Assembly: GCF_945882965.1 (NCBI RefSeq)
Contig: NZ_CAMCWY010000012.1
Coordinates: forward strand, 1 to 64,000
DNA length: 64,000 nt
DNA from: Sphingorhabdus sp. EL138
GTDB taxonomy: Bacteria > Pseudomonadota > Alphaproteobacteria > Sphingomonadales > Sphingomonadaceae
Direction of reading: 5' to 3'
The position numbers and the translations under genes are program-made. Numbering within the stretch: position 1 is the first letter of the stretch; the number at the start of each line of letters is the position of its first letter. Positions 25,392 through 26,237 of this stretch are shown here, in pieces. Under the pieces are notes generated by a model. The model was not told where the DNA came from and did no database searches. It saw only the letters and a program-made list of their open reading frames with translations.

Positions 25392-26237
25392 TTGATCATG
25401 CTCCAAATAACTAACCTCCACGCCAATGTTGGCGACCAGCCTATCCTCAAGGGCCTCACGCTGTCGCTCGGTGCAGGTGAGATCCATGCGATTATGGGAC
25501 CCAATGGCGCGGGAAAATCGACGCTGGGTTATGTGCTGTCTGGTCGGCCCGGCTATGAAGTGACCGAGGGTGAGGTGTGGTTCACACCGCATGTGTTCCC
25601 CGGCGAAGGCCGGGGTCCAGAACCTAAAACAGAAGACTCATCAGCCGCGTTGGACCCCGGCCTTCGCCGGGGAACACAAGGGCCAATAAACCTCCTCGAC
25701 CTCGAACCGCATGAACGCGCGGCGGCTGGATTGTTTTTGGGCTTTCAATATCCTGTCGAAATCCCTGGCGTATCAAACGTCCAGTTTCTGCGTGAGGCAT
25801 TGAACGCGCAGCGCAAGAACCGAGGTGAAGCGCCTTTATCGGGCGCCGAATTCTTGAAGGTTGCGCGTGAACAGGCGGGCGCGCTGGGCATGGATATGGA
25901 TATGCTCAAACGCCCGGTAAATGTAGGCTTTTCGGGCGGCGAGAAGAAGCGCAACGAGATGGTGCAAATGGGCATCATTAACCCCGCGCTCGCGATCCTT
26001 GATGAAACCGACAGCGGTCTCGATATCGACGCATTGCGCATAGTCGGCGACGGCATCAACCGCATCATGCGCAAGCCCGACAAGGCCGTGTTGCTGATCA
26101 CGCACTATCAACGGCTTCTTGATTATGTGAAGCCCGACTTCGTCCACGTCCTTGCCGATGGCCGCATCACGCGGAGCGGCGGACCTGAACTCGCGCTTGA
26201 GCTGGAGCGTGAGGGATATCGGGAGCTCGCCGCTTGA
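25392..26237 (+). CDS. sufC: Fe-S assembly ATPase SufC with in-frame palindromic insert
   Basis: This is the ABC-type ATPase of the SufBC2D complex. Walker A is GPNGAGKST (36-44), the Q-loop is in FLGFQYPVEIPG, the signature is SGGEKKR, and Walker B is LAILDETDSGLD. At 281 residues it is about 30 longer than usual. The excess lies between EVTEGEVWF and LLDLEPHERAAAG, where relatives have a short turn. That stretch (codons 67-96) is encoded by an 87-bp element of two perfectly complementary 28-nt arms. All ATPase motifs are intact, so the protein is probably active. Two Met codons at 25392 and 25398 are possible starts. Confidence 0.95.
   Translation: MIMLQITNLHANVGDQPILKGLTLSLGAGEIHAIMGPNGAGKSTLGYVLSGRPGYEVTEGEVWFTPHVFPGEGRGPEPKTEDSSAALDPGLRRGTQGPINLLDLEPHERAAAGLFLGFQYPVEIPGVSNVQFLREALNAQRKNRGEAPLSGAEFLKVAREQAGALGMDMDMLKRPVNVGFSGGEKKRNEMVQMGIINPALAILDETDSGLDIDALRIVGDGINRIMRKPDKAVLLITHYQRLLDYVKPDFVHVLADGRITRSGGPELALELEREGYRELAA
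25592..25678. repeat. Palindromic element inserted in sufC (28-nt arms)
   Basis: The left arm 25592-25619 and right arm 25651-25678 are perfect reverse complements over 28 nt, separated by a 31-nt loop. Each arm also holds its own small palindrome (CCCCGG...CCGGGG). The element is 87 bp, exactly 29 codons, with no stop in the sufC frame. The arms (core CCCCGGCGAAGGCCGGGG) resemble repeats I recall as frequent in sphingomonad intergenic DNA. Membership in a genome-wide family needs a search. Confidence 0.93.

Follow-up and report, generated by a model that had tools for sequence, protein, structure and literature searches.

A palindromic repeat read in frame in sufC of Sphingorhabdus sp. EL138, and the recurrence of such inserts at one turn of SufC

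The sufC gene of Sphingorhabdus sp. EL138 contains a palindromic DNA repeat that is read in frame. This insert is a young, still perfect example of the inserts found at one β-hairpin turn of SufC, which about nine palindrome families occupy, a count that stays approximate because E/E2 and C/I/J may be variants (families A to J are names of this analysis, assigned by peptide motif). Judging from the sequences compared, this single turn of a conserved protein appears to be a hotspot that many repeat families have entered recurrently and in part horizontally. Throughout, the window is the whole stretch of 64,000 nucleotides that was analysed, and coordinates without a locus handle refer to it.

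The window contains a suf gene cluster comprising an Rrf2-type regulator, sufB (23,866–25,347, + strand), sufC, a sufD-like gene (26,770–27,504, +; 169.8 bits against TIGR01981, under the cut-off of 222) and sufS (27,501–28,727, +), with an ORF that by eye is acetyltransferase-like at 26,234–26,773, between sufC and the sufD-like gene. The sufC gene (25,398–26,237, +) encodes a Fe-S cluster assembly ATPase of 279 residues; its ORF is listed from a TTG at 25,392, with the ATG at 25,398, and the protein scores 321 bits against the NCBIfam model TIGR01978 (cut-off 212.8), which places it within SufC. Short-loop congeners have a loop of 9 nt (3 residues, e.g., ...TFNGQDLL...), whereas the window has a divergent loop of 105 nt at 25,584–25,688 (+), corresponding to residues 63–97 and reading ...WF-TPH-(repeat)-QGPI-NLL. 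Within this loop lies a REP-like dimer of 85 bp, GTGTTCCCC...GGGGAACAC (25,593–25,677, +), the boundaries of which are taken from copies elsewhere in the genome and in congeners. The left inverted arm (28 nt, 25,592–25,619, +) and the right inverted arm (28 nt, 25,651–25,678, −) are 100% complementary over 28 nt and enclose a spacer of 31 nt (25,620–25,650, +) that resembles the spacer in sufC of G014. A small hairpin read from the sequence, CCCCGGC-GAAG-GCCGGGG (25,598–25,615, +), represents the REP unit in the left arm and is mirrored in the right arm.

The two perfect arms around 31 nt, the open ORF that runs through them and the position of the insert between conserved SufC blocks all agree with a preliminary description of this DNA. 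That description had also given the addition as 87 bp and 29 residues; it is indeed in frame, and its size has to be corrected, since 105 nt stand in place of 9 nt and SufC, with 279 aa in the window and 247 aa in the short-loop G017, has a net gain of 32 residues. A 24-nt core pattern has two matches in the window and none in any of 100 shuffles, the inverted-repeat score of the insert is 28 against a maximum of 9 among 60 shuffles, and the insert as RNA has a predicted fold of −73.8 kcal/mol (z −8.2). In the AlphaFold2 model, the insert forms an unstructured loop (pLDDT <50 at residues 68–93) between the strands of the hairpin, the first of which ends at residue 62, with the next at 97–98. 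It maps to the turn between residues 62 and 66 of the solved SufC, which we take to be that of E. coli. SufC is probably made with the loop present, and the loop is presumably neutral.

The repeat has a further place in the same genome. A search of the whole 2.36-Mb genome with the arm, allowing up to three mismatches, finds one other place, an imperfect inverted pair between two ORFs that by eye encode the gamma and alpha subunits of ATP synthase. The earlier proposal of a dispersed palindromic repeat is thus upheld by an intergenic copy, and the mobile-repeat reading survives both this search and the comparison of SufC across relatives, where the majority of the proteins examined are without an insert. 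With up to two mismatches, the arm occurs in 6 of 41 genomes, namely this one, four congeners (from the 24 other genomes of the genus searched) and one genome from another family of the order. Family B has matches in 38 of 46 genomes and family C in 20 of 46; genomes with family B or C in sufC hold more copies elsewhere than other inserted genomes do (Mann-Whitney test among 32 inserted genomes, which ignores kinship, p = 0.004 in both cases). In G333, all 17 family-C matches were fetched and two of them fall, in frame, within genes that could be recognised (sufC and truB), so that in-gene acceptor sites seem few; family C is likewise present in sufC and truB of G305 (9 of 14 matches fetched), and for both genomes the scan covered part of the ORFs spanning family-C matches and may miss in-frame cases. 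In an ORF with a methylmalonyl-CoA mutase domain, the repeat precedes that domain and may lie upstream of the true start.

Long loops recur at the same turn in other genomes. Within the genus of the window, 45 genomes including this one were surveyed: 30 have a short loop (5 residues longer in one of them), 9 have a long one, two are truncated at contig ends (in G042, the end of an insert is still visible) and four gave no SufC, which amounts to long loops in 9 of 39 readable genomes, this one included. In Sphingopyxis, long loops are present in 21 of the 76 genomes with a match, all 21 having been fetched together with 46 of the 55 others, and the remainder judged from match length. Across the order, a query with a neutral X loop detects long loops in 25 of 396 genomes (this one included) and in 10 of 84 genera. 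Ten of the best 80 named loci have long loops, and without two of them, G011 and G051, the count is 8 of 78, one being G207 and another Sphingopyxis PET50 (G861). Beyond the order, a class-wide search finds, among the matches listed, a long loop in only this genome of 385, a weak test of absence because the query is sphingomonad-based and only five family members are among those matches. Both X-loop queries, for the order and for the class, would miss frameshifted or very long inserts.

The inserts at the turn are diverse in sequence and consistent in form. Their peptides include PGEGRGPE...DPGLRRG in the window and, in other genomes, VRAEPVEA...PSTSSGRT, RHAGLDPAST...TPDQVRGD, RHCEERSDEAI...LLRSARND and PLPLAGG...LTPPASGRG. 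Ends, hydropathy and arm counts were taken from 39 inserted rows representing 38 genomes, with L113 and G207 being one genome and L112 and G008 probably also one. Inverted repeats score above all 60 shuffles in 36 of the 39 inserted rows, the exceptions being G139, G100 and G329. One open frame runs through both halves of sufC in all 30 long-loop genomes of the two genus surveys; this frame evidence comes from the genus-survey query, which lacks the insert and does not demand one frame, and the divisibility of insert lengths by three, which holds by construction, is not counted towards it. Hydropathy as a reason for the frame used is not significant, the frame in use ranking first in 12 of 39 rows against 10.4 expected. 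Inserts are flanked by T (23 of 39) then P (28 of 39) and, on the other side, by I/V/L (34 of 39) before D/N-LL; short alleles mostly have N/D-G and Q/E at the positions flanking the loop. In a SufB+SufC tree of 139 rows, built with the loop left out and with inserted taxa over-represented, the inserts are scattered with some clustering by descent, requiring 26 binary changes, where shuffles average 34.3 and the lowest of 200 gives 28. Homologous inserts fall in separate subclades of this tree.

In at least one case, the loop seems to have been passed between species as a small cassette. The inserts of two Sphingopyxis genomes, G845 and G207, are identical (96 of 96 nt), with flanks that are 5.3% different over 170 nt upstream and 12.9% over 560 nt downstream, and the identical run that spans the loop is 131 nt long. 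Among 1294 control pairs with comparable divergence, the median of the longest run is 53 and its 95th percentile 80, and a single pair reaches 131. An identical loop within diverged flanks points to short-tract recombination between species. Of 39 pairs of the same type, G845/G207 lies furthest out, and in only 15 does the insert show less divergence than the upstream and the downstream flank alike. Between G000 and G014, whose inserts are homologous, 15 of 105 insert sites are different, a divergence similar to that of the surrounding sufC sequence, and sliding windows reveal no clear tract of recombination between the two; this pair therefore gives no clear signal of transfer, and it fits either old shared ancestry or an old transfer.

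The comparison of G014, which has the insert, with G063, which has the short loop, bears on how the loop is exchanged within a gene. The two differ by 0–4% in the five nearest sufC windows and by 8% in the sixth. Their loops differ despite near-identical sufC on both sides, and the flanking codons are changed too, which looks like replacement of the loop more than a clean insertion. The single clean insertion first envisaged does not hold up, given that flanking codons differ along with the insert and that homologous inserts occur in separate subclades.

Comparison of related inserts shows the palindromes decaying while the frame is kept. In seven distinct comparisons, several of which share a reference, the arms show 17 broken pairs and two compensated ones; the L113 comparison, with which the count would be 19 broken in eight comparisons, is left out because L113 duplicates G207. 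In five Sphingopyxis loops, the ends of family A are retained and the frame is still intact, with most of the repeat sequence lost. Uncompensated arm changes speak against selection on the hairpin, and the earlier suggestion that the perfect palindrome might be under selection is not borne out.

We propose that short palindromic repeat dimers exist as populations in sphingomonad genomes, for the most part between genes, and that a dimer would at times end up in the β-hairpin turn of SufC (normally N/D-G-x), replacing the turn. The survivors would be only those alleles that are in frame, free of stops and able to form a flexible loop at the surface, since these leave the ATPase core intact. The loop could then be copied into sufC of other species by short-tract homologous recombination, and over time the palindrome would erode with the frame maintained, such that the repeat becomes an ordinary protein loop. 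Taken as a whole, from dimer entry through in-frame survival and short-tract spread to erosion of the palindrome, we consider this account fairly probable. The first entry of a dimer into the gene would be a proposed step, preceding what is seen directly in the insert and its identity as a repeat, the recurrence of many families, the open frame, one strong shared tract and the decay. Among the points that weigh against the account, tolerance alone does not explain the frequency of hits at this turn, and simple insertion does not predict that flanking residues change along with the insert.

A tentative reading, to which we would give somewhat less than even chances, is that the turn is a horizontally exchanged site for loop cassettes, which unrelated selfish palindromes enter repeatedly, from which they spread between species by short-tract recombination within an essential gene and in which they erode into protein. 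If true, this would constitute an intein-like niche that needs neither splicing nor an enzyme for mobility, and intergenic repeats would have a lasting path into protein sequence. Repeats of this kind, palindromic and in frame, tend to be regarded as sporadic accidents; in SufC, a single turn accommodates about nine families, in at least ten genera and, for two genera, in roughly one genome out of four, and young, decaying and nearly eroded stages are all present among the SufC loops. The site thus bears on the spread of REPs without a known transposase, on the passage from selfish DNA to protein and on the shortest tract that can move a protein loop.

Inteins and homing introns recurrently occupy one conserved site in essential proteins and spread horizontally, and the SufC turn shares with them the recurrent occupation and, apparently, the horizontal spread. 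An intein, however, it is not: the 35-residue loop is far too short for a splicing domain, and the peptide is presumed to be retained. In an NCBIfam scan of the window SufC, the best 25 of 53 families are all models of SufC or of other ABC ATPases. REPINs consist of two inverted REP units with a spacer and are moved by RAYTs; the window element has the same two inverted REP units and spacer, and was not assigned to the RAYT-linked REPINs because no RAYT was found in the genome.

The likeness to Rickettsia palindromic elements (RPEs), drawn in the preliminary description, holds in that the window insert is a palindromic repeat read in frame in a surface turn of a conserved protein. According to a review (PMC2229807), RPEs are present in 19 Rickettsia reading frames, and a guanylate kinase with such an insert is produced and remains active, its affinity for substrate being altered. 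The likeness is one of mode of insertion; the SufC case differs in that here many families occupy one turn of one protein and the loop has apparently moved between species. CGTC-tagged REPs, as described in the accessible sections of PMC3733652, are head-to-head dimers, mostly of alphaproteobacteria, with a CCA tail and no dedicated transposase. The window element has a TCCAG tail and is an inverted dimer, as in this class; its hairpin, with a stem of 7 bp and a loop of 4 nt, compares with stems of 8–9 bp and loops of 4–5 nt in CGTC REPs, but it starts with GTGTT rather than with the tag (CGTC or TGTC/CCTC), and we did not assign it to the class for lack of the tag. Other sufC families, e.g., C, do begin with CGTCATGCC. 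The same sections report CGTC and GTAG REPs inside many genes, including truB in S. alaskensis, and different REPs at about the same site in recB of two Xanthomonas species, with REPs in other genes of the same functional category at different sites. In-frame REPs are therefore already known from that source, whose accessible sections do not name sufC; those of PMC12306157 contain no mention of sphingomonads, and, among the matches listed in the open-licence PMC literature searched, no title concerns sufC inserts or a many-family SufC hotspot.

The conserved residues at the loop ends invite a different reading, in which a long-loop allele is old, persists beside the short allele with its ends conserved and has its inner repeat swapped now and then. 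The end W-I/V-D/N-LL accompanies families B, D and G in genomes near Sphingomonas/Sphingosinicella, and the residues at the ends clearly distinguish long from short alleles, the young insert of G000 included. However, the ends in Sphingopyxis for the most part go with the repeat family, which separate events would predict, the shared T-P codons vary at their third positions, and no intermediate was caught among the loci compared. We regard a persistent allele as unlikely, with a minor share of the probability.

An enzyme such as a RAYT might instead insert the dimers into sufC because it prefers a DNA target there, as the use of the same codon interval by many families could suggest; the movement of GTAG REPs by RAYTs is a hypothesis cited in the accessible sections of PMC3733652, which also describe CGTC repeats as apparently without a dedicated transposase. 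This idea is improbable, since the Y1 transposase (PF01797) has 0 matches in this genome and is present in 8 of 46 genomes, 6 of these among the 32 long-loop genomes, the sequence ends differ between families, and no target duplication was seen by eye in the few flanks compared. We rule against RAYT as the mover on the strength of the 0 PF01797 matches here and the few in other genomes; a missed transposase gene is possible but unlikely because the genome is 99.85% complete.

Selection could in principle recruit the repeats, either for a hairpin that tunes the suf mRNA or for a loop peptide that alters SufC or its partners. The high recurrence, the strong predicted RNA hairpin in the window and the partly similar pattern in TruB, also a housekeeping protein, would be in keeping with such a function, but the pairing of the arms is not kept, most genomes examined have the short loop, and different families encode different peptides, leaving a selected function very improbable. 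An assembly or contamination artefact, for which one could cite the 38 contigs and 2.14% contamination of the genome, can be dismissed almost entirely because G014 has a homologous insert and different inserts occupy the site, in one open frame, in many other genomes that are independent of this one and in several cases consist of a single contig.

The TruB site is only partly similar to the SufC site and represents a mixed case. A long-loop query for TruB with a neutral loop passes 157 of 392 genomes, and the β-hairpin loop of TruB (L293–L342) is often long, with many of these loops being palindromic repeats of several families. Among the 50 truB loci examined, one duplicate and 17 unparsed loci were left out of the shuffle test; 14 of the 32 distinct loops tested exceed all shuffles and 18 do not, and 12 of these 18 share a native RPDP-type loop. 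The truB of this genome (L323) has a middling loop and no inverted repeat (score 6, without shuffle test).

Further repeats were observed in the window and beyond. An inverted repeat dimer of a different family, with 29-nt arms that are 86% complementary, lies at 49,753–49,840, between the end of a thiolase-like ORF and an SDR-like ORF (both by eye), the listed start of the latter overlapping the left arm. A third inverted repeat, with 34-nt arms that are 88% complementary, lies at 51,103–51,234, between ORFs that by eye are thiolase-like and aldehyde dehydrogenase-like. In an ABC-F protein (L229:558–2519, − strand; best model Uup, under the cut-off), a family-B repeat separates the two ATPase domains. 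In two Sphingopyxis with a family-C insert in sufC, a second family-C repeat is located just downstream of the gene (L278:2057–2075 and L290:2218–2236).
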